NCBI RefSeq assembly: GCF_900170035.1
Contig: NZ_LT828553.1
Coordinates: 54,240 to 118,239 of the forward strand
Length of the DNA: 64,000 bases
Reading direction: 5' to 3'
Source of the DNA: Desulfamplus magnetovallimortis
GTDB taxonomy: Bacteria > Desulfobacterota > Desulfobacteria > Desulfobacterales > Desulfobacteraceae
The notes under the pieces are model-generated. The model did not search any database. It saw only the letters and a program-made list of their open reading frames with translations, and was not told where the DNA came from. Shown piece by piece: positions 1-10,573 of the stretch (position 1 is its first letter; the number at the start of each line of letters is the position of its first letter). The position numbers and the translations under genes were made by a program.

Positions 1-361
1 TGCCGCTTACCCATTCACCTAAAAACATTTCATTTACAAAGTTATTTGTTGTATTGTAACTGTTTAGCTGTTCTATACGCTGCACATAAACATTACGCAA
101 ACATTGCACATCCTTACAATCTGAACGTTTTGTTTTGATCCAGTTGATCTGCTCTTTTTTTAGCACTTTTTGATCTGTATGTTGTTTTGCATTTTTATAT
201 GCTTTTGCCAACTCTTCATCAAGTATTGAAAGTTCTTCATTGCTACAAATTATATGCTCAATAATTGAGCCTGCTTTTTTACAATCAAAACTTGCCGCAT
301 TGACAACTCCCACAATTACAAATCCAGCTATAAAAATTACAATAAGTTTTACTTTTGTCAT
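1..361 (-). CDS. LprI-like (DUF1311) secreted protein, partial
   Basis: The reading frame opens with ATG at 361 and runs off the window at base 1, giving 120 visible residues; the C-terminus is missing. Residues 1-23 form a signal peptide ending N-A-A, so the mature protein would start near SFDCKKAG. The mature part has the features of the LprI / DUF1311 family: an early Cys (C27), a second Cys in IICSNEELSILDEELAKAY, a Q-x-x-W-x-x-x-R-like stretch (QINWIKTKRSDC) and a paired Cys before LRNVYVQRI. Family members are small periplasmic or lipoprotein-type proteins, some of which inhibit lysozyme; whether this one does is not shown. It precedes no visible gene on this strand, but lies just downstream of the OmpA gene (31 bp gap) and may be the last visible member of the envelope locus. 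Confidence 0.75.
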   Translation of the reverse strand, partial: MTKVKLIVIFIAGFVIVGVVNAASFDCKKAGSIIEHIICSNEELSILDEELAKAYKNAKQHTDQKVLKKEQINWIKTKRSDCKDVQCLRNVYVQRIEQLNSYNTTNNFVNEMFLGEWVSG

Positions 362-391: not shown

Positions 392-1015
392 CTATTGAAT
401 CAATTCAACTTCAACACGCCTGTTCTTCTGCTTGTTTTCCTTACTGGAATTGGGAACAAGCGGACATTGTTCACCAAAACCGGCAACCTTCAGTCTGGAT
501 GGTTCTATGTCATAATTGGAGATCAGGTATTCCTTTACCGATCGTGCCCGCTTAAAGCTTAATTCGATATTTTCAGAAGCATCCCCATCCGAATCTGTGT
601 GACCACTGATCAACACACCCTCATGCTCTATCTGTTTATTGTTCAAAGCTTTGCCAAGTTCAGCTAAAACCTTGTGAGATTGAGGTTTTATGGTATAAGC
701 ATTAACGTCAAATTCAACTTTGATAGCAACACCCTTTGGAGCAGCAAAGTCTTCAAAAATCAGTTTTGTTTTTTTTATATATTCTCCATTCTCAGCTTCT
801 TCATAAAACGTAATCCTGCGAAGTTTTTTTACCCCCGTTTTTTTACCGCTGATGTGAAATTCAAATTTTGATGTACTCTTCGATAGTCCTTTGACGATTT
901 CCTCTGAAGAAACAATCTGTTCCTTTTCTTCTTCTTGACAAAAAACTGGGTCAGCCAAGAAAACTATGATCAAAATGAAAAACAAATTGCTAATAAACAT
1001 ATTTTTAGCTTTCAT
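392..1015 (-). CDS. OmpA-family peptidoglycan-binding protein
   Basis: A 207-residue protein with an N-terminal signal peptide (hydrophobic residues about 7-24, ending VFC-QEEE). The C-terminal half, about 98-205, is an OmpA_C domain: VEFDVNAYTIKPQS at the start, the GHTDSDG loop and the IELSFKRARSV segment that binds diaminopimelate in this family. It would sit in the periplasm and grip peptidoglycan. There is no beta-barrel in front, so it is either free in the periplasm or lipid-anchored through the Cys near residue 26 (not a canonical lipobox). An AGGATAAG ribosome site precedes the ATG. Just before the OmpA domain it carries KKTKLIFED, which loosely resembles the RKTRDLVFEED motif of the DUF4384 protein and the CHAT protease further upstream in the same locus. 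Confidence 0.88.
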   Translation of the reverse strand: MKAKNMFISNLFFILIIVFLADPVFCQEEEKEQIVSSEEIVKGLSKSTSKFEFHISGKKTGVKKLRRITFYEEAENGEYIKKTKLIFEDFAAPKGVAIKVEFDVNAYTIKPQSHKVLAELGKALNNKQIEHEGVLISGHTDSDGDASENIELSFKRARSVKEYLISNYDIEPSRLKVAGFGEQCPLVPNSSKENKQKNRRVEVELIQ

Positions 1016-2901: not shown

Positions 2902-3705
2902 TTAATTTGCCAGTTGATCAGACATTAGGGTGCTAATATTGCTCGGAAGAAATACTTTGTTTGCAGGGTTACTTGAAATGCTTTTGTAAGATTCCATGAT
3001 TTTCTCTGCCAATAATATTTTACCTATGATCTCTTCTCCCAATGTCTCTGATAATTTCTTGATGTACTTTGCTTCAGCATCAGCCTTATGGAGTAATGCA
3101 GCAGCCTCTGCTTCTGCCACCTTAATTGTAGCTTCTGCCAAACCTTCAGCCTCAAGAACAGATGCTCTTCTCTTTCTCTCCGCGGCCATCTCTTGACGCA
3201 TAGCTTCTGCAGTCTCATCTGATGTGCTTAGTTCTCTAATTTCAACTCGGTTGATATTTATACCCCATTTCTGGGCAGTGTTAGATAAGTCTATCGTAAC
3301 TTTTTCATTTAATTCTTTTCTTGTTCTAAGAATATCATCAAGAGTTAAAGAGCCTATTTTACTTCGCAAAGTGTTTAAACAGGAATCTATAATTGCTTCA
3401 GGTAAGTGGTCAACTTCAAAAACTGCTTTTCTAACATCTGTGATTCTCCAATAGATTGACGCATCAACGGTCACAGGGACATTATCTTTTGTATGACATT
3501 CATTAGGTTTTGTATTGAAATTTTGTTCGGAAAGTTCGATTTCAAAACCGTTTTTATTGGCAATATCATTCCAATGGTCAACGCGATAAATTTTATGTAT
3601 AAATGGCATCTTGAATCTAAGACCTTCCGTCAACGTCTTAGAATATTTGCCAAAACGAGTGAGAACAACGACATGAGATTGAGGAACAGAAATTAATATA
3701 CCCAT
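2902..3705 (-). CDS. SPFH/Band 7 (stomatin-like) protein without membrane anchor
   Basis: ATG at 3705 is preceded by TTTGGAG; a TTG at 3717 is less likely. The 267-residue product starts directly with the first SPFH strand (SVPQSHVVVLTRFGKY) and continues through the domain to about residue 175, including the NVPVTVDASIYWRI segment and the IGSLTLDDIL...R helix. A helical AEAEA-rich stretch follows (about 175-230), as in stomatins, which uses it for oligomer rings. What is missing is the hydrophobic N-terminal hairpin or transmembrane segment that normally anchors these proteins to the membrane. It is followed on the strand by the zinc-ribbon gene and preceded by the TPR-CHAT gene (130 bp). 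Confidence 0.88.
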   Translation of the reverse strand: MGILISVPQSHVVVLTRFGKYSKTLTEGLRFKMPFIHKIYRVDHWNDIANKNGFEIELSEQNFNTKPNECHTKDNVPVTVDASIYWRITDVRKAVFEVDHLPEAIIDSCLNTLRSKIGSLTLDDILRTRKELNEKVTIDLSNTAQKWGININRVEIRELSTSDETAEAMRQEMAAERKRRASVLEAEGLAEATIKVAEAEAAALLHKADAEAKYIKKLSETLGEEIIGKILLAEKIMESYKSISSNPANKVFLPSNISTLMSDQLAN

Positions 3706-3835
3706 TTTTTTCTCCAAATTTAGAATTAATACGTTATAGATTGTAAATTAACAATCCATCTAATTTAGTGGCAAACATATAAACTGTTAATGTTGCTGAT
3801 GATCCTTTTATCAAAATTTATATAAATTATCTTTT

Positions 3836-6800
3836 TTACTGTCCAAATACTGCACCAACTGCCCAGAAATAGGGGTGCTTAGGAGCTTTGGTATAATCCG
3901 AACCAAAAGGGGGAGCTTTCAAATATGCAATTTGAGCCTGACGCAATGACTCTGAAGGTGAGAATTGATCCAAGCCGTCAAAAAAGCGACTTCCAATAAA
4001 TCCCATTGCAGCATCATCGGCGAACCAAAGCGTACCAAGAACGCTTTGAAAATTACGTTTCATAAAAGTGTCCGTCAAACACACCTGATCAACCCCCGGA
4101 GTCCAACCGGATTTAACTAATTCTTTGTTAATATCTCCTTCCTGAAGTTCTTGTCTGGTTTTTTGATCAATTTTCGGGGAGTAAGTGACGGCAGTGTTGC
4201 AAGCTGAAAGCACAGCGAGTTTGGCATTTTTAAATGAGCTATCAGGTAACTCCATAATTTCCTTTAAAGTTAATACACCGTCATTTTTTTCCTTTCCGGT
4301 ATATGTCATATACAAAAATCCATAAAGGGGTGATTTTGTATTGAATGTTTCTTTGCAAAATCTTACGAAGGGGGAATATTTATCGATCTTTTTCTTATAT
4401 TTATCGATTTTTATCTCATCCTTTTCGTCTCCCATTTTTTTTGACAATTTATCGACATATTTTTCAATCTTTCTGGAGTCTTGAAGGATTTCTGCGAAGG
4501 GGACGCCATGTGTGGCAAAATAATATACAGAGTAGTCTCCTTTACTTATCATTTCTTTCCAATTGTCTTCAGTGGCCGTTTTTCTACTCAGTATGTCAGG
4601 TGCAATTAATTTCTTTGATTCTATTGCCTTTTTAACCCCTTCCACCTCTTTTTCTGTACCAGGCAGCTCTGCCAAAGCAGTTTTCAAGAATTTATGATCA
4701 GGGTTAGCAACACATATTGTTTTTGGATTCTGAAGAACGGATGTTTTCCCTTTATTGCTTTTATAATTATCAAAAAAAGAAAGCCTTAAATAAGATATAT
4801 TTTTGTTATAGACAAGAAATTCAGGTTCGCCATTTTCTGTAACACCTTTTACAAGAGCGGAAAAAGGGACATAGCTTAAGTACTTACTTGGGACGATGAT
4901 CAAATTCTCTTTTCCTGCAATTTCTTTTTCAACAGGATTTATTAATGCTTGATGCAATCGTTGCATCACCTGAATACATTCAGTATAACACTGCTCCTCA
5001 TCATCGCACTCTCCATGACCAAATAGTTCAATTTGCTTATAGGTATAATCATCACGGATAAGTTTTGCTAAATCTTCATAGGTTATATTGACATTTGCGG
5101 CCTTGATCTCTTTATTTGTAACGCAAATAATAGATAACATATCACTAAGTGGAAAATATTGTATTAAAGCCTGATCATCATTAAGACTTTTTTGAATGGT
5201 TTGTAAATCAACTTTAGCAGCGCTTTCAAACATACCTGCATCATTTGGATATTGCTTTTTCCACTTGTCTAAGAGTTTTGTAAATGCGACTTCGAGCTTC
5301 TGTGATTTGGCTGAAAGCCTTTTGAATTCTTCCTCTACCGCCTTCTTCTTTTTAACATATTCCGCTTTTTCTGATTCTGTATTGGGTTCCTTTTTCTTCA
5401 ATATGCCGCTCATAAGCTGGGAACTTGCTTCATCCACTTTCTTTTTTTCGGCCAGAGCTTTCGTTAAAGATGTGAAAATTTCTGCTTTCTCTGGTTCTTG
5501 AAAAAGAGGTTTGGCAGTCATGATGGCATTCTTCATGACCTCATTTTTGTAAATCTCCTGATACTCCATCTGAGAACTCAGGTATTTTTTTTCGTTGGTT
5601 TTCGCATAAAGTATTGAAGCAACCTCAATGGCTTCTGTAAACAGGTCTTCCTTGTCCTTAAGATAATCCCCCATAAGTTCTGAATCGGAATCACTCCCAC
5701 GGATACTGATAACCGTCTCAATTGCGTCATTATAATATTTAAAGGCTTCATTTTCTTTGCCCTGTGTTTTAAGTGCATAACCGATACCTTGTTGCGCACT
5801 CCATATCGCCTCTTTTTTGCCCACTTTTTCCGCAAGTTCCAAGGCTTCGCCGTAAGCCTTGAGTGATGCAGTCTTTGCTTCATCTGGTTCCATGTCAATG
5901 AAGACCGGCCCGTCATCTTCAAAAATCAAATCCCGAGTGGTTCGTTTACGATCAATTCCCTTTTTAAGAACACGCCCAATTTGGTTCAGTGTTTCCGCTT
6001 GATAGGCAATATTGCCAAGCTCCCGATAAATATTCAGAGCTTTTTCATAATATTCATATGCCTTTGGGTAATCGAGACTGTCAACTTCATAAAGCTTACC
6101 TAAGCCTAAGTAACAACTTGCCGTTCCCTCCTTGAATTGCACCCTGGAGTAAATTTCCAATGCACTCTGATAATCATCCATAGCATCGTCATTTTTGCCA
6201 AGTATTCGATTCACAAGAGCGTGATTGCTAAGTGCGATAGCTTCGGATTTCTCATCTTTTATTTCTCTGGCAATCTCAATGGAGGTTTCTATGGAATCAA
6301 GTGCCTTGGGATAATTACCGGCACTCTTGTAAACCAGCCCCTCATTGTTGTAATCAGCGCTCAAGTTGGCTTTTAGCTCTTCTTTCTTCTCCAGATCCTT
6401 GGCTTTTGTGAAGTAATCAAGGGCCTTTGAATATTCTCCGGAATCCCAGTAAACTATGCCGAGATTACTGTAGATTTCCGATATATTTTGTGCTTTTCCA
6501 GTTTTTTCCGCAATTGGCAATGCCTTTTCAAGACTGCCTATCGCTGCATCAAATTCGCCGAGTTTGGCCTGCGAAAGACCCATTGCAGTAAGGACAATGG
6601 CTTCACTTGTTGTGTTCTTTAATTCTTTGTAACATTTTAAGGCTTTTGCGTAGCAATCAATGGCTTTAGAATAAATCTCGTTTCTTCTATATGAGTCAGC
6701 AAGCTCTGCAAGAATATCGGCTTTTGTTTTTAGATCAATTTCTTTGTATTTTTCCAATAAAGATTCCAGAATTGATGCTCTAATAGCGTAGTGCCCCATC

Positions 6801-7150
6801 TTGTAGTGAGCTGATGCCAAAGTCTTATTTAGCTTAATGTCCAATGCTTTGCTCGGTTTTTTATTGAGCGATAAAGCACTTTCCAGCTCCTGGACAGCTT
6901 TTGAAAACTGACCTTCTTGAAAATAAAGAATACCGATGTTCATTTGTACTTGTTGAGCACCTGCCGGATTCTTGCTTTTCTTCAATATATCAACAACCGT
7001 TTCAAATTCCGCAATAGCAGCTGAAGAGTCCCCTTTTTTTAGATGTTGATTCGCGGCATTTAAATGAGTATTGAGATCTGCCCCATTTACATAACAAGCA
7101 AATAGAATTGAAAATATTACGGTGATTCCGAACGATTTAATACTTTTCAT
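3836..7150 (-). CDS. secreted TPR-CHAT protease
   Basis: ATG at 7150 has AAGGAAT in front and begins a clean signal peptide (MKSIKSFGITVIFSILFACYVNGA), so the longer N-terminus starting at 7225 is rejected. The mature protein of about 1080 residues carries ten or more tetratricopeptide repeats over roughly 30-500, a coiled-coil linker (about 550-680, rich in K and E) and a C-terminal CHAT domain, a caspase-like cysteine protease fold. The catalytic pair is present: His881 in YFATHG and Cys984 in LSACNTA, followed by the usual GTLWFADD segment. A lysine-rich insertion of about 50 residues lies between them. The TPRs contain an unusual insert, RKRTTRDLIFEDD (401-413), that matches a motif repeated in the neighbouring DUF4384 protein. 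The signal peptide puts the protease in the periplasm. Substrates are unknown; proteolysis is inferred from the family and intact residues. Confidence 0.9.
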   Translation of the reverse strand: MKSIKSFGITVIFSILFACYVNGADLNTHLNAANQHLKKGDSSAAIAEFETVVDILKKSKNPAGAQQVQMNIGILYFQEGQFSKAVQELESALSLNKKPSKALDIKLNKTLASAHYKMGHYAIRASILESLLEKYKEIDLKTKADILAELADSYRRNEIYSKAIDCYAKALKCYKELKNTTSEAIVLTAMGLSQAKLGEFDAAIGSLEKALPIAEKTGKAQNISEIYSNLGIVYWDSGEYSKALDYFTKAKDLEKKEELKANLSADYNNEGLVYKSAGNYPKALDSIETSIEIAREIKDEKSEAIALSNHALVNRILGKNDDAMDDYQSALEIYSRVQFKEGTASCYLGLGKLYEVDSLDYPKAYEYYEKALNIYRELGNIAYQAETLNQIGRVLKKGIDRKRTTRDLIFEDDGPVFIDMEPDEAKTASLKAYGEALELAEKVGKKEAIWSAQQGIGYALKTQGKENEAFKYYNDAIETVISIRGSDSDSELMGDYLKDKEDLFTEAIEVASILYAKTNEKKYLSSQMEYQEIYKNEVMKNAIMTAKPLFQEPEKAEIFTSLTKALAEKKKVDEASSQLMSGILKKKEPNTESEKAEYVKKKKAVEEEFKRLSAKSQKLEVAFTKLLDKWKKQYPNDAGMFESAAKVDLQTIQKSLNDDQALIQYFPLSDMLSIICVTNKEIKAANVNITYEDLAKLIRDDYTYKQIELFGHGECDDEEQCYTECIQVMQRLHQALINPVEKEIAGKENLIIVPSKYLSYVPFSALVKGVTENGEPEFLVYNKNISYLRLSFFDNYKSNKGKTSVLQNPKTICVANPDHKFLKTALAELPGTEKEVEGVKKAIESKKLIAPDILSRKTATEDNWKEMISKGDYSVYYFATHGVPFAEILQDSRKIEKYVDKLSKKMGDEKDEIKIDKYKKKIDKYSPFVRFCKETFNTKSPLYGFLYMTYTGKEKNDGVLTLKEIMELPDSSFKNAKLAVLSACNTAVTYSPKIDQKTRQELQEGDINKELVKSGWTPGVDQVCLTDTFMKRNFQSVLGTLWFADDAAMGFIGSRFFDGLDQFSPSESLRQAQIAYLKAPPFGSDYTKAPKHPYFWAVGAVFGQ

Positions 7151-7190
7151 GAGCAAGATTCCTTTTTTGCATGTTGAGTGAACCATAAAA

Positions 7191-7280
7191 ACATAGCAAT
7201 CTGCATCCATTGATGATGCATCCATTTTTGAAATAACGGGTGCAGATTGCTATGTACAGGAGAACTTAGCCTCCTGTACA
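7191..7280 (-). promoter_or_regulatory. double hairpin in leader of the CHAT gene
   Basis: Two inverted repeats lie 40-130 bases before the CHAT start. The first pairs 7191-7208 with 7238-7255 (17 of 18 bases match, about 29-base loop). The second pairs TGTACAGGAG (7253-7262) with CTCCTGTACA (7271-7280) around an 8-base loop. Neither is followed by a T-run on the minus strand, so a simple rho-independent terminator is unlikely. A leader structure controlling CHAT expression, or a processing site, is inferred. Confidence 0.5.
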
Positions 7281-7318
7281 TTTGGTACACTTACTAAATC
7301 GAATAAAGGATAATACCT

Positions 7319-8197
7319 TTAGTTTGTGTTACTAAGAGTTTGAGCATCTGACATCAAGTCCTGAGTGTTGGTAAGCATGCTTTTTGAGACAGTTGAAAGG
7401 GTTTGCACCTTTTTAAAAAGAGCAGGCCCAGTTGAAAGCAGGGATTTAGCTGAACCAAAGATACTTGTAATGCCGCCGCTCTTTGCTGAGTTTACCTGAC
7501 TTGCTGCTTCCTGTACTTCATTCATGAGGCCAAAAACTTGTTGAACAAATGCCTGCATAGTTCCAAGCAATTTATTTGTTTGTGGAATAACGTTCGCCTG
7601 AATATCTCTTTTATCCTCTTTGCTTAACTCATCTTTTTCTGCAGCTTCGTTTACATATTCCCGCCTGGCCAATCTTAATTCTTCCTGGGCTGCACTCATT
7701 TCATTCAATTTGTCCTGATCAATCTCACTGACAACTACATCAGCGCTTTTGATTCTTGTGTTTCCAAGATTAGTTGCAAGGTTTGCACGGGTTTTACAGT
7801 TGCATTCACTCCACATGGCCGCATACTGATCCTGAAGCTCTTTGTATGCATTGGCCTGCCCCATTACTTTTTTCTGGGTAGCATCACTCACTTTTCCGGA
7901 GCTGTTCATTTCACTTTTGGCCTTCTCAACCAAGGGTTTGTATTGCTTGTCATTTTCCTCGATCTCATGGCGCAGACTCTTTTCTTTTTGCCAATCACAT
8001 GGTGGAGGTTGTTTTGAGGGCTTTTTCAATGTATCAAGGGTTATCATCTCCAGTTCTGCCGAATTACTACCAGCGTCTTGGGCCATAGCATTACTTTGCC
8101 CTGACAGTTCAGATGCTGCCCATGCAATGGCCGCTACCAGAAGTATTGCTCCTATAATCAGTAGTTTCTTTTTGCGCTTATTTATGTTGTTTTTCAT
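7319..8197 (-). CDS. membrane-anchored helical protein, unknown function
   Basis: ATG at 8197 has GAGGAA upstream; a TTG at 8215 is the alternative. The 292-residue product starts with a basic stretch (KNNINKRKKK) and one hydrophobic segment (about 12-30, LLIIGAILLVAAIAWAA), either a signal anchor or an uncleaved signal. The remainder is hydrophilic and mainly helical, with three Cys (one in PPCDW, two in ECNC) and a Gly/Ser-rich hinge near residue 240 followed by Ser/Thr-rich helices. It resembles no domain I can name. It lies between DUF4384 and CHAT genes on the same strand and is probably part of the same envelope locus, facing the periplasm. Confidence 0.65.
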   Translation of the reverse strand: MKNNINKRKKKLLIIGAILLVAAIAWAASELSGQSNAMAQDAGSNSAELEMITLDTLKKPSKQPPPCDWQKEKSLRHEIEENDKQYKPLVEKAKSEMNSSGKVSDATQKKVMGQANAYKELQDQYAAMWSECNCKTRANLATNLGNTRIKSADVVVSEIDQDKLNEMSAAQEELRLARREYVNEAAEKDELSKEDKRDIQANVIPQTNKLLGTMQAFVQQVFGLMNEVQEAASQVNSAKSGGITSIFGSAKSLLSTGPALFKKVQTLSTVSKSMLTNTQDLMSDAQTLSNTN

Positions 8198-8370
8198 TCT
8201 ATTAGAGTTCCTCAAGTCAATTCGATTCTTTTAAAAAACAAATTTCTATTTATGACTCTGTTGATTAAGTGCTTACATATTTGACTTTGGCACAATATAA
8301 TGATTTTGAAATAATCAAGAAACAATCATATTGTGGTGAATTTTTTAAATGTTGGCTAAATCAACAAGGC

Positions 8371-9075
8371 TTATTTATGAACAAGTTCGTAATAGACAAC
8401 AAAAGGTTCAGCGGCATTCTCATTGCTTTGGCTTTTTGTGGAAATGCCGCTATCTTCATCTTCATCTTCTTCAAATACGAGGTCTCGAGTTTTGCGTTTG
8501 CTCTCCTGCTTTTTTTCTACAGATTGCACAGGGGCTGCGGATGATGATATCTCTCCCTTGCTGGCGGCAGCCTCTCTGGCTGCTTCCTCCAACTCTGGAA
8601 CTTTTTCGGTTGCAAGAACCGCAAGTATTTTTTCGACTCCCTGTGTTTCGTCGAATTTGAAGGAGCCTTTAACAGGGATCGTATAGACCTCATTTTTTTT
8701 AACAAGGTTGTCCATGCTCCTGCCTGCATGAGGAAAAAGCATATAGTATTTCCCGCTGCTACCCTGGGAGAGCCAGTACGCGTAGCAATCAGTATTAATG
8801 GTATAAATGAATTTTACTTTATCCCCTGATTTGAATTCGTGGGTTGGAAGCACCGTGCTTTTTTCCCCATCTCTCAAAAGTTCAATGGTTGTTTTTACGG
8901 CTATGGTTTCCAAAGGGGTACCATCTTCTTTCTTGGCGCTGGAAAGAACTTCCTCATCTTCTTCAAAAACCAAGTCACGGGTTTTTCTTTTTGCATCTGC
9001 GTAATCAACAAAAGTTATCATCGTAAAAGCGAAAAAAAACAAAATAATAGAAGTAAAAAAAGATAAACGCTTCAT
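8371..9075 (-). CDS. secreted DUF4384-like protein with two RKTRDLVFEED motifs
   Basis: A 234-residue protein starting at an ATG with AAGGAG in front. Residues 1-28 are a signal peptide ending A-D-A. The mature N-terminus would begin KRKTRDLVFEEDEE, so the motif is exposed at the very end of the chain; a second copy lies at 194-204. Between them is a DUF4384-like beta domain (about 58-155), recognisable by FKSGDKVKFIYTINTDCYAYWL and YYMLFPHAG, a segment common in proteins that travel with CHAT or caspase-like proteases and TPR proteins. The tail after the second motif is short. The two motif copies differ at the third or synonymous positions of most codons, so the peptide, not the DNA, is conserved. 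The same peptide occurs in the CHAT protease. Confidence 0.82.
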   Translation of the reverse strand: MKRLSFFTSIILFFFAFTMITFVDYADAKRKTRDLVFEEDEEVLSSAKKEDGTPLETIAVKTTIELLRDGEKSTVLPTHEFKSGDKVKFIYTINTDCYAYWLSQGSSGKYYMLFPHAGRSMDNLVKKNEVYTIPVKGSFKFDETQGVEKILAVLATEKVPELEEAAREAAASKGEISSSAAPVQSVEKKQESKRKTRDLVFEEDEDEDSGISTKSQSNENAAEPFVVYYELVHK

Positions 9076-9145
9076 AAAAATCTCCTTTTTTGATTTGGTA
9101 TCGGTGTAGGCCAGTTAAAAACATATTCTTCAAGACTGAACATTT

Positions 9146-9425
9146 GGACATCCTTCATATCAACTTAAAATTAGTTTACACTTTTCGAAAAATTCTGAAC
9201 CATGATTAAAAAAAGGATTTAAGGATCTCAAGAGTTGTAAGTTCTCGTTTGGCATAGCATATATGATATATGCGCCGTTTTAGTTTAATGAAGCACTATA
9301 TGTAGTTATAAAATCGAGAACATATGACTCACGAGTAAGGATTAACACGATTAAAAATCAAGGTAATCCCTTAATCATGAAAATCGTGGTTCAAAAAAAG
9401 TGTAAACCGACAAATGAAAGATGCC
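9146..9425. repeat. family A repeat with family E nested inside
   Basis: Outer arms GGACATCCTTCATAT and AAATGAAAGATGCC with inner TTTACACTTTT / AAAAGTGTAAAC mark a family A element stretched to 280 bp. Inside it is a second inverted repeat starting GAACCATGATTAA and ending TTAATCATGAAAATCGTGGTTC (family E), plus about 110 bp of unrelated sequence. No gene is seen in 9076-9476. Confidence 0.7.
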
Positions 9426-9476
9426 AACATTTGATGATTAAATTGAGATATCACCTCCCTGATTTTACGAAACGAG

Positions 9477-10316
9477 TTATGGAATAGGATTTTTTTCATT
9501 CTGTTTGACTGCCCATTCTTCAATGATTTGAGATTCAAAATCCTGGTTGTATCCTGTAAATGATTTTGTGATACTCTCCTTTTCAGACTCAGAAAGAGCA
9601 CACCATTTGCTGATATAAAAATTCTTGAATAAAACATCATGATCCCATGTGACATGCCATCGTTCGTGGTTAAGATTTTTTTCCAGACTTCGTCTTATGC
9701 CGGGTGCTGCGCCAATGATGTGTGAAACTTTCCCGAAGGCGCGAAACCTCTCAGAGAATCGGATTACAATTTTCTCCTCGATAAGTAAGGATAAAAAACG
9801 TTCAGATCCCGCAAAATGACTCTTTTGCGGAATTCTGGCAAATGAGTTTGCCCATGAAACAACTTGGGAAATTGAATAGTGGAACCCCTGTGCCCCTCTT
9901 TTGAATCGTGAAAGGGAAACAGTTGAATCCAAATCCTTAGTGTGTAGGGCTATGCTGTAAATTGATTCAGCTAAATCTGCTTTTGTCGCAAAAAGCATCT
10001 CATAGGTCTCTTGTCTGTATTTCCAGTTATGAAAAAAAAGAGACTTTGGGGCAGAGTCCCACTGACCTAAGATGGAACCTGGAAATCTTTTATAATCATC
10101 ACAATTAGCGGAACCATCTACAGTGGAGCTACTTATTAATCTGGAATATCTATGAAATAGATTCTCTACATTACTTTTCTTGACATTTTCTTTGTGGCTT
10201 TCAATTTTCTCTTTTGAGAAAATCTCAGTATCCGCAAATGAATGAGATCCCAAAAATAAAATCATTAATGATAATAGCGTTGCTTGATTCAGCATAAGAA
10301 GGTACCTAACAGACAT
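9477..10316 (-). CDS. secreted protein with HExxH motif, candidate metallopeptidase
   Basis: 279 residues from ATG at 10316 (273-nearby alternative ATG at 10295; neither has a strong ribosome site). The first 28 residues are a signal peptide ending H-S-F-A. No family is recognised by sight, but residues around 216-222 read LNHERWHVTWDHD, which contains HERWH, a match to the HExxH zinc-peptidase signature. About 45 residues later IIEEWAVKQNE offers acidic residues that could provide a third ligand, as in gluzincin-type peptidases. These are seen in sequence; metallopeptidase activity is inference. It is the first gene of the minus-strand envelope locus, upstream of DUF4384 and CHAT. Confidence 0.6.
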   Translation of the reverse strand: MSVRYLLMLNQATLLSLMILFLGSHSFADTEIFSKEKIESHKENVKKSNVENLFHRYSRLISSSTVDGSANCDDYKRFPGSILGQWDSAPKSLFFHNWKYRQETYEMLFATKADLAESIYSIALHTKDLDSTVSLSRFKRGAQGFHYSISQVVSWANSFARIPQKSHFAGSERFLSLLIEEKIVIRFSERFRAFGKVSHIIGAAPGIRRSLEKNLNHERWHVTWDHDVLFKNFYISKWCALSESEKESITKSFTGYNQDFESQIIEEWAVKQNEKNPIP

Positions 10317-10467
10317 GGGAGATAACAGTTAAATATCTGATTTTTTGTTGTTTAATTTCAAGGCGTTAGGTTTGCATTTTCAAAAGACCTGAAAAGATCT
10401 CGTTTAAACTTTTTGTGATTATAGATTTGAAATGTCAGATAAATGTAAAATTTTGAAAAATATATTT

Positions 10468-10573
10468 GATGGACTCGTAAAAAGTTCGATTTCAGCATTT
10501 TGTCAGTTATAACATACTGAAATTATTATTAGCGATTTTGGCATGCTTCATTTCCCGCTTTACATTTTTCGGA
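10468..10573. repeat. family F repeat joined to half of family A
   Basis: Begins TGATGGACTCGTAAAAAGT, a start shared with copies at 45652 and 60389 (family F), and runs to 10540. There a family A end (GGCATGCTTCATTT) starts without its partner arm. The following stretch to 10786 has GGAGAGGAGGG-type C/G-rich sequence similar to 18720 and 60610, and no gene. Confidence 0.6.

Follow-up and report, generated by a model that had tools for sequence, protein, structure and literature searches.

A short peptide motif occurs in both a TPR-CHAT protease and the DUF4384 protein beside it: a possible private tag, for docking or cutting, of an envelope protease system

The DNA analysed here, called the window throughout, is a stretch of 64,000 nucleotides from Desulfamplus magnetovallimortis (contig NZ_LT828553.1, positions 54,240 to 118,239 of the forward strand) that encodes, among other proteins, a tetratricopeptide repeat (TPR) protein ending in a CHAT protease domain and a smaller DUF4384-domain protein. 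Both contain the peptide RDLVFE or a close variant of it, and the recurrence of this peptide in a presumably secreted, caspase-like protease and in the adjoining DUF4384 protein suggests a private docking or cutting tag of an envelope protease system. The reading that we favour, at a probability of roughly 45%, is that RDL[VIL][FY][ED] is a short docking motif which assembles the TPR-CHAT protein with DUF4384 in the periplasm and is read by the DUF4384 beta-sandwich; docking in one form or another is probable. Bacteria commonly encode CHAT and DUF4384 proteins, most of which, to our knowledge, have no known substrate or partner. With a fixed tag of six residues in a CHAT protein and in the DUF4384 protein next to it, one can ask directly which protein binds or cuts which, and matching variants of the tag offer a route to the partners of other DUF4384 systems. 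The features concerned are as follows (window coordinates).

8371..9075, minus strand: DUF4384 protein of 234 aa (Pfam PF14326, E=3.1e-13), with a signal-peptide-like start by reading
3836..7225, minus strand: TPR-CHAT protease, presumably secreted, 1129 aa (1104 aa from M26 at 7150); Pfam CHAT PF12770, E=1.6e-35, and several TPR families
3857..4966, minus strand: CHAT domain, with H881 and C984 (numbered from M26)
8956..8988, minus strand: motif copy 1, RKTRDLVFEED, DUF4384 aa 30-40, just past the signal-peptide-like start
8464..8496, minus strand: motif copy 2, RKTRDLVFEED, DUF4384 aa 194-204, ahead of the last predicted strand
5912..5944, minus strand: CHAT motif copy, RTTRDLIFEDD, in a loop that joins two TPR helices

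The single CHAT copy occupies residues 428-438 if translation starts at the first ATG and 403-413 if it starts at M26 (MKSIKS...), which precedes a stretch that reads like a signal peptide. Both domain matches score well over their cut-offs (123 bits against 24 for CHAT, 50 against 27 for DUF4384), and of the predicted catalytic pair H881 is invariant and C984 is conserved in all rows of the CHAT alignment (A4). Across the whole 6.68 Mb genome the exact pattern occurs three times, always at this locus, where 0.02 occurrences are expected under uniform base composition, and the reversed pattern, used as a control, has no match across the same 6.68 Mb. A degenerate DNA form of the motif allowing up to two mismatches matches the window three times, compared with 0.17 ± 0.45 times in shuffled sequences. 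Besides these two proteins the genome has four CHAT domain hits and six DUF4384 domains, none of which matches the pattern. The two DUF4384 copies and one CHAT copy reported by the first-pass annotation are thus the only ones in the genome, and its remark that the copies use different codons agrees with a direct comparison of the window sequences. Between copies within one genome, however, 202 of 377 codon pairs are identical against 170 expected from pooled usage; the copies are therefore slightly more alike than expected, and codon identity is no proof of ancient divergence.

The motif recurs in other genomes with the same two partners. A looser pattern, run over 389 genomes of the class with the reversed pattern as control, gave seven matches in four genomes, against five single matches in five genomes for the control. 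Three genomes (G000, which is that of the window, G357 and G068) have one pair of matches each, 483-495 bases apart and all in DUF4384 relatives, and the remaining match, in G175, is out of frame within a helicase-like open reading frame (ORF). A wider scan of a contig database returned 26 stretches, and in 16 of them the motif lies within DUF4384 and/or CHAT genes; these 16 come from 14 contigs labelled Desulfovibrio, Deltaproteobacteria, Ca. Desulfatibia, Ca. Adiutrix or Mailhella, and in some GC-rich loci the genes were recognised by tblastn rather than by ORF picking. The other ten stretches carry single matches in other taxa, where 11 are expected by chance. Five of these lie in frame within an ORF of at least 60 aa, none of them CHAT or DUF4384: Pfam identifies a TonB-dependent receptor and a CdaR-type regulator, matches a third weakly to an outer-membrane barrel and assigns no family to the other two. 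With a shorter pattern, 14 whole genomes yielded 44 matches, compared with one for the reversed control, and 43 of the 44 fall inside DUF4384 or CHAT genes. The sole match elsewhere is at G404 contig 64, 75016-75035, with no ORF of at least 110 aa over it.

A census of 16 genomes counted 55 copies in 34 DUF4384 and CHAT regions, with no region lacking a copy: 31 in 15 short DUF4384 proteins, 11 in six long ones, 12 in 12 TPR-CHAT orthologues and one in a different CHAT protein. The typical load is two copies per DUF4384 protein and one per CHAT protein, and fewer than two per DUF4384 protein are found only at contig ends. In short DUF4384 proteins copy 1 is N-terminal, and in long ones it immediately precedes the domain; one DUF4384 protein (L106:4358-5170) has three copies, two of them near each other by the C-terminus. 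Among the 54 full rows of the census, position 4 is V in 51, I in two and L in one, position 5 is F in 53 and Y in one, and the residue preceding R is T in 48, A in four and S in two. Because the census pattern, RDL[VILM][FY][ED], demands its own letters, fixedness there holds by construction, and the invariance rests on alignments made without any pattern. In the DUF4384 alignment (A3), TRDLVF of copy 1 and RDLVF of copy 2 are each invariant in 15/15 proteins, R33 and R197 included; in the CHAT alignment, T405, R406, D407, L408 and F410 (from M26) are invariant in 9/9. The aligned CHAT proteins are 35-38% identical to that of the window, the closest one 59%, and the motif is kept throughout, in a loop whose flanking residues vary. 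The first-pass annotation had taken the peptide to be under selection and to link CHAT with DUF4384; conservation and a specific link between the two proteins are both borne out. Neither of the two refuting outcomes that it named was seen: away from these loci the motif occurs at roughly the chance rate (ten stretches against 11 expected), and orthologues of CHAT and of DUF4384 alike have kept it.

A search independent of the motif gave a consistent picture. The neighbouring protein P298, which itself lacks the motif, served as the profile (A1) for this search, with matches in three of 395 genomes of the phylum and in six of 348 from the class to which G392 belongs; contig coordinates point to G401 and G396 as two of the three phylum matches. 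All nine P298 genomes have the motif in both DUF4384 and CHAT, although only G397, G400 and G1013 lie outside the profile itself and only G1013 was newly found. Its gene order is P164-DUF4384-CHAT-P298-P279-OmpA, with both copies in DUF4384 and RAARDLVFDDEE in CHAT.

The motif also occurs in a second CHAT lineage. The CHAT protein of a Ca. Adiutrix genome (G399), of 968 aa, has no match to the window CHAT at E<=1e-4 and is akin to generic TPR-CHAT proteins. It carries PGTRDLVYEEDE at aa 35-46, straight after a signal-peptide-like start and not in a TPR loop, and it adjoins a long DUF4384 protein with two motif copies. This genome contains no P298 or P279 at E<=0.001, which leaves DUF4384 plus CHAT as the minimal shared pair. 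Since the motif stands at another site in a non-orthologous CHAT, it moves between positions and CHAT lineages while keeping its DUF4384 partner, and is likely a transplantable short linear motif. RDL-x-[FY]-[ED] is absent from all 28 other TPR-CHAT loci and all 29 relatives of the G399 CHAT, as judged from stretches of about 1.5 kb each side of the match in which some proteins are cut. A weak-motif pattern applied to other TPR-CHAT proteins gave, among the eight hits listed per protein, one near match, VRDLNFS in L012, and says little because it also fits the TPR consensus, for example EKALAIY. Searching 194 genomes of the order with the window CHAT, with three candidates scored per genome, gave best hits outside its own genome of 26-36% identity, many of them to the TPR part only; G068, which has the motif, gave no CHAT hit because its contig ends past DUF4384. 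At L049 and L100 the CHAT frame is cut at the contig start and from position 3 onward begins TVTGVQTCALPI, presumably a translated sequencing-adapter artefact of contig ends.

An AlphaFold2 model of the CHAT protein (eight aligned sequences) has a predicted local distance difference test score (pLDDT) of 79.7 and a predicted TM-score (pTM) of 0.68. Motif residues 403-412 score below 50 and lie between helices 381-399 and 422-443, in a loop that is predicted to be disordered. Foldseek ranks DdvA, separase, TONSOKU and LGN as the best matches of this model, each with a low overall TM-score, and among the closest PDB sequences the TPR domains of LGN/Pins and kinesin light chain are prominent, ranked below designed TPR proteins. 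The DUF4384 model (13 sequences; pLDDT 75.8, pTM 0.70) had no Foldseek match in the PDB at E<=0.001. An alignment of C-terminal tails shows that copy 2 coincides with a weaker element, [RK][DGSAN][ILV], which precedes the last strand by a short distance in 16 of the 20 other DUF4384 proteins aligned (14 of the 34 attempted were dropped because the frame was not found, the tail length lay outside limits or the domain check failed, and L154 and L173 were trimmed to the part past the first domain). From this comparison of sequences, copy 2 seems to be a fixed version of an older DUF4384 C-terminal element, so that the copies at the N-terminus and in CHAT may imitate a strand of DUF4384 itself.

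This older element is the main reason why we prefer DUF4384 as the most likely reader of the motif. Many DUF4384 proteins carry the weaker element just ahead of the last strand; in this system extra copies stand at the mature N-terminus and in the CHAT loop. Each extra copy could insert in trans as a swapped strand, and such swapping would link DUF4384 subunits to one another and tether CHAT to DUF4384. For comparison, in donor-strand exchange of the chaperone-usher type an N-terminal extension completes the Ig-like domain of a partner; copy 1 has an N-terminal or pre-domain place but is coil in the DUF4384 model, which has no Foldseek match at E<=0.001. The site of the motif in CHAT is not fixed (TPR loop in one lineage, N-terminus in the other), as expected of a motif that is read in trans. 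Several observations weigh against the proposal. In the DUF4384 model TRDLV lies outside any strand at both copies: copy 1 is coil, and copy 2 starts at the end of a helix, passes through coil and enters strand F201-D206, a block of only partial order (pLDDT 60-71). The general element is weak, being missing from four of the 20 tails, and the 20 include several that are closely related to one another. A fixed Arg is equally expected of a CHAT cleavage site, and most loci were found via the motif itself.

An extension of this proposal, which we put forward as speculative and on balance doubtful, is that an exchangeable DUF4384 strand serves as an address tag with a different variant in each system, and that two unrelated CHAT proteins independently acquired a mimic of the partner strand, giving a periplasmic assembly built by strand exchange. 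Candidate variants, RDLVF here and KDIQV or RDLSV elsewhere, were seen among the 25 loci listed: SKDIQV, AKDIQV and TKDIEV are repeated in one DUF4384 protein of L181, in the same kind of places, and SRDLSV and AKDLSV are repeated in a DUF4384 protein of L190. L181 itself, on contig 6 of the window genome (G000), encodes five DUF4384 proteins in a row at 4909-10471, some with KDIQV, KDINV or KDVVV elements; by reading, two of them also hold a caspase-like domain. At a separate locus, L183 (G395 contig 107, 3981-16694), a relative of the window OmpA accompanies a DUF4384 protein, a caspase-like protein (by reading) and two further large proteins. There RRGIRV follows the signal peptide of the caspase-like protein, and KRGINV and TRGISV occur in the two large proteins, possibly another tag variant.

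The strongest competitor to docking, although in our judgement an unlikely one, is that the motif is a cleavage site, with CHAT cutting after Arg (TR/DLVFE) twice in DUF4384 and once in its own TPR loop as autoprocessing. The Arg is invariant at both copies in 15/15 DUF4384 proteins and in 9/9 CHATs, the His/Cys dyad is invariant, and the motif sites are predicted to be coil or are modelled with low confidence. In the eight CHATs of the alignment that reach there, an Asp follows four residues past the Trp of an LW stretch; we liken it to the S1 Asp of separase, and human separase is among the best Foldseek matches of the CHAT model. Such a presumed S1 Asp is common in CHAT domains and does not single out this system. 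Positively charged residues precede orthocaspase cuts, according to the accessible text of PMC6426788. On the other hand, the primed side, D-L-[VIL]-F, is as fixed as the Arg, beyond the usual need of a protease, and a cut at copy 1 would remove just a few residues of the mature protein. A further point against is that, in the available portion of PMC10028731, an alanine scan with the TPR-CHAT protease Csx29 found no essential residue in its substrate Csx30, although deletion of M427, in the loop that is cut, stopped cleavage.

A second form of docking, which we hold to be improbable, places the motif in the groove of the TPR domain, where the internal copy would block the groove and keep CHAT inhibited until the DUF4384 copies displace it. 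The prominence of kinesin light chain and LGN/Pins TPR domains among the closest PDB sequences is in keeping with this, as is the presence at position 12 of TPR6, TPR7 and TPR8 of Trp, Lys and Arg/Lys throughout, presumed to be groove residues. Kinesin light chain offers the precedent, since an internal LFP motif is displaced by cargo motifs, as set out in the accessible part of PMC6224480. Yet conservation at the presumed concave positions does not significantly exceed that of the remaining positions in helix A (p=0.20), the internal motif has a pLDDT below 50 in the monomer model, and the related element in DUF4384 proteins outside the gene set is left unexplained.

Considerably less credible still is that the motif on both proteins is read by a further partner, whether P298, P279, OmpA or a housekeeping protein of the envelope. 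The genes do recur together, and two DUF4384 copies with one CHAT copy would suit a scaffold; G399, however, has the motif in both proteins without P298 or P279 at the threshold given above, albeit in one draft genome where a gap is possible, and a housekeeping protein could still be the reader. Although the motif is short and its identical codons slightly exceed the pooled prediction, we give practically no credence to chance or recent duplication: it occurs far above chance, is kept in CHATs of 35-38% identity and is written in differing codons.

OmpA was also considered, and rejected, as a third carrier of the motif. The window OmpA reads KKTKLIFED at aa 81-89, without R-D-L, and the similar OmpA beside the caspase-like gene of L183 reads KKTILIFQD at the equivalent place; no such string is present in the three other operon-linked OmpA proteins seen (L110, L112 and L123). 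Of the proposed system of CHAT, DUF4384, OmpA and helper proteins, then, the motif link between CHAT and DUF4384 and the recurrent envelope gene set stand, and the looser OmpA motif falls away.

The system can be set beside several known ones. Craspase likewise pairs a TPR solenoid and CHAT protease, Csx29, with a dedicated partner, Csx30, which is cut between residues 427 and 429 (PMC10028731, accessible text). Craspase is CRISPR-guided, whereas the window CHAT has a signal-peptide-like start and a peptide motif common to protease and partner. No ORF of Cas7-11 size lies in window 1-16 kb, where the longest is CHAT itself and the next 612 aa (CRISPR arrays were not searched for), and a PADLOC scan of seven proteins gave TPR and MotB-like matches only, with no Csx family. 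DdvA, titled a transmembrane anti-sigma factor (PDB 8rot and 8rw5), is the best Foldseek match (E 2e-12 and 8e-12) but superposes poorly overall (TM-scores 0.22-0.28, root-mean-square deviation about 27). The window CHAT protein is not recognised by Pfam as an anti-sigma factor; no paper on DdvA was found in the literature searched. Separase has the same broad class of protease behind a helical-repeat region (Foldseek E 9e-12), but it is eukaryotic and its TM-score is about 0.2; we know of no DUF4384 partner of separase. Kinesin light chain and LGN have similar TPR sequences, but there is no protease in those systems. One feature of kinesin light chain, whose internal motif competes with cargo motifs (PMC6224480, accessible part), does have a parallel here, as the internal motif in the low-pLDDT CHAT loop matches that of the DUF4384 partner. 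Orthocaspases link DUF4384 to a caspase-type protease in the portions available of PMC6426788 and PMC7475262, but they have caspase p20 rather than CHAT, and the DUF4384-caspase copies seen here have no RDLVF tag. No paper describing a CHAT-DUF4384 pair, and none containing TRDLVF, was found in a search that excluded preprints and most subscription journals. The first-pass annotation had named the locus the best candidate for an undescribed system in the window; its gene set is recurrent, and no description of it was found in that literature.

The other genes of the locus and its neighbours are these.

7319..8215, minus strand: P298, helical, with a hydrophobic stretch at the N-terminus (by reading); no Pfam family, nothing there below E=0.06
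9477..10316, minus strand: P279, with HERxH (HExxH, a zincin-like signature); no Pfam family
9654..9668, minus strand: HERWH motif of P279 (alignment A2)
2902..3717, minus strand: SPFH/Band 7 protein (Pfam), neighbour
392..1015, minus strand: OmpA-domain protein (Pfam), neighbour

The core genes DUF4384, CHAT, P298 and P279 co-occur repeatedly in variable order. The window and L048 have the order P279, DUF4384, P298, CHAT, and L106, L110, L111, L112 and L123 have P164, DUF4384, CHAT, P298, P279; L104 shares this second order with P164 itself not recognised, and L100 has P164 and DUF4384 after the other genes. An OmpA-domain gene follows P279 in L110, L112 and L123, a long second DUF4384 gene follows the core genes in L104 and L106 and lies upstream in L101 and L102, and a divergent SPFH protein (27% identity) is present in L048. 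Gene absence in G393, G403 and G405 carries little weight because the locus reaches the contig end there. In the P279 alignment, H217, E218, R219 and H221 are invariant in 10/10 sequences, as are E266 and E267 downstream; Pfam assigns no peptidase family, the window protein having no match and other members single matches at E 0.006 or worse. P164 is small and secreted-looking and stands beside DUF4384 in 11 of 16 loci (for example L101:9513-10007); the member tested belongs to no Pfam or NCBIfam family, and no counterpart was recognised beside the window DUF4384. An NCBIfam scan gave nothing above cut-offs.

A few further neighbours were seen. Downstream of OmpA, window 1-361 encodes a secreted-looking protein which we take to resemble the LprI family; it continues in L113, where the sequence includes masked bases. 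In L100-L102 (for example L100:4386-5174) a relative of prolipoprotein diacylglyceryl transferase (LGT) adjoins P279, together with an unknown membrane protein. Directly upstream of P279/DUF4384 in G394 (L047:540-4712) are a protein of 205 aa and a Tubulin_2 protein whose C-terminus matches TerB below the cut-off.

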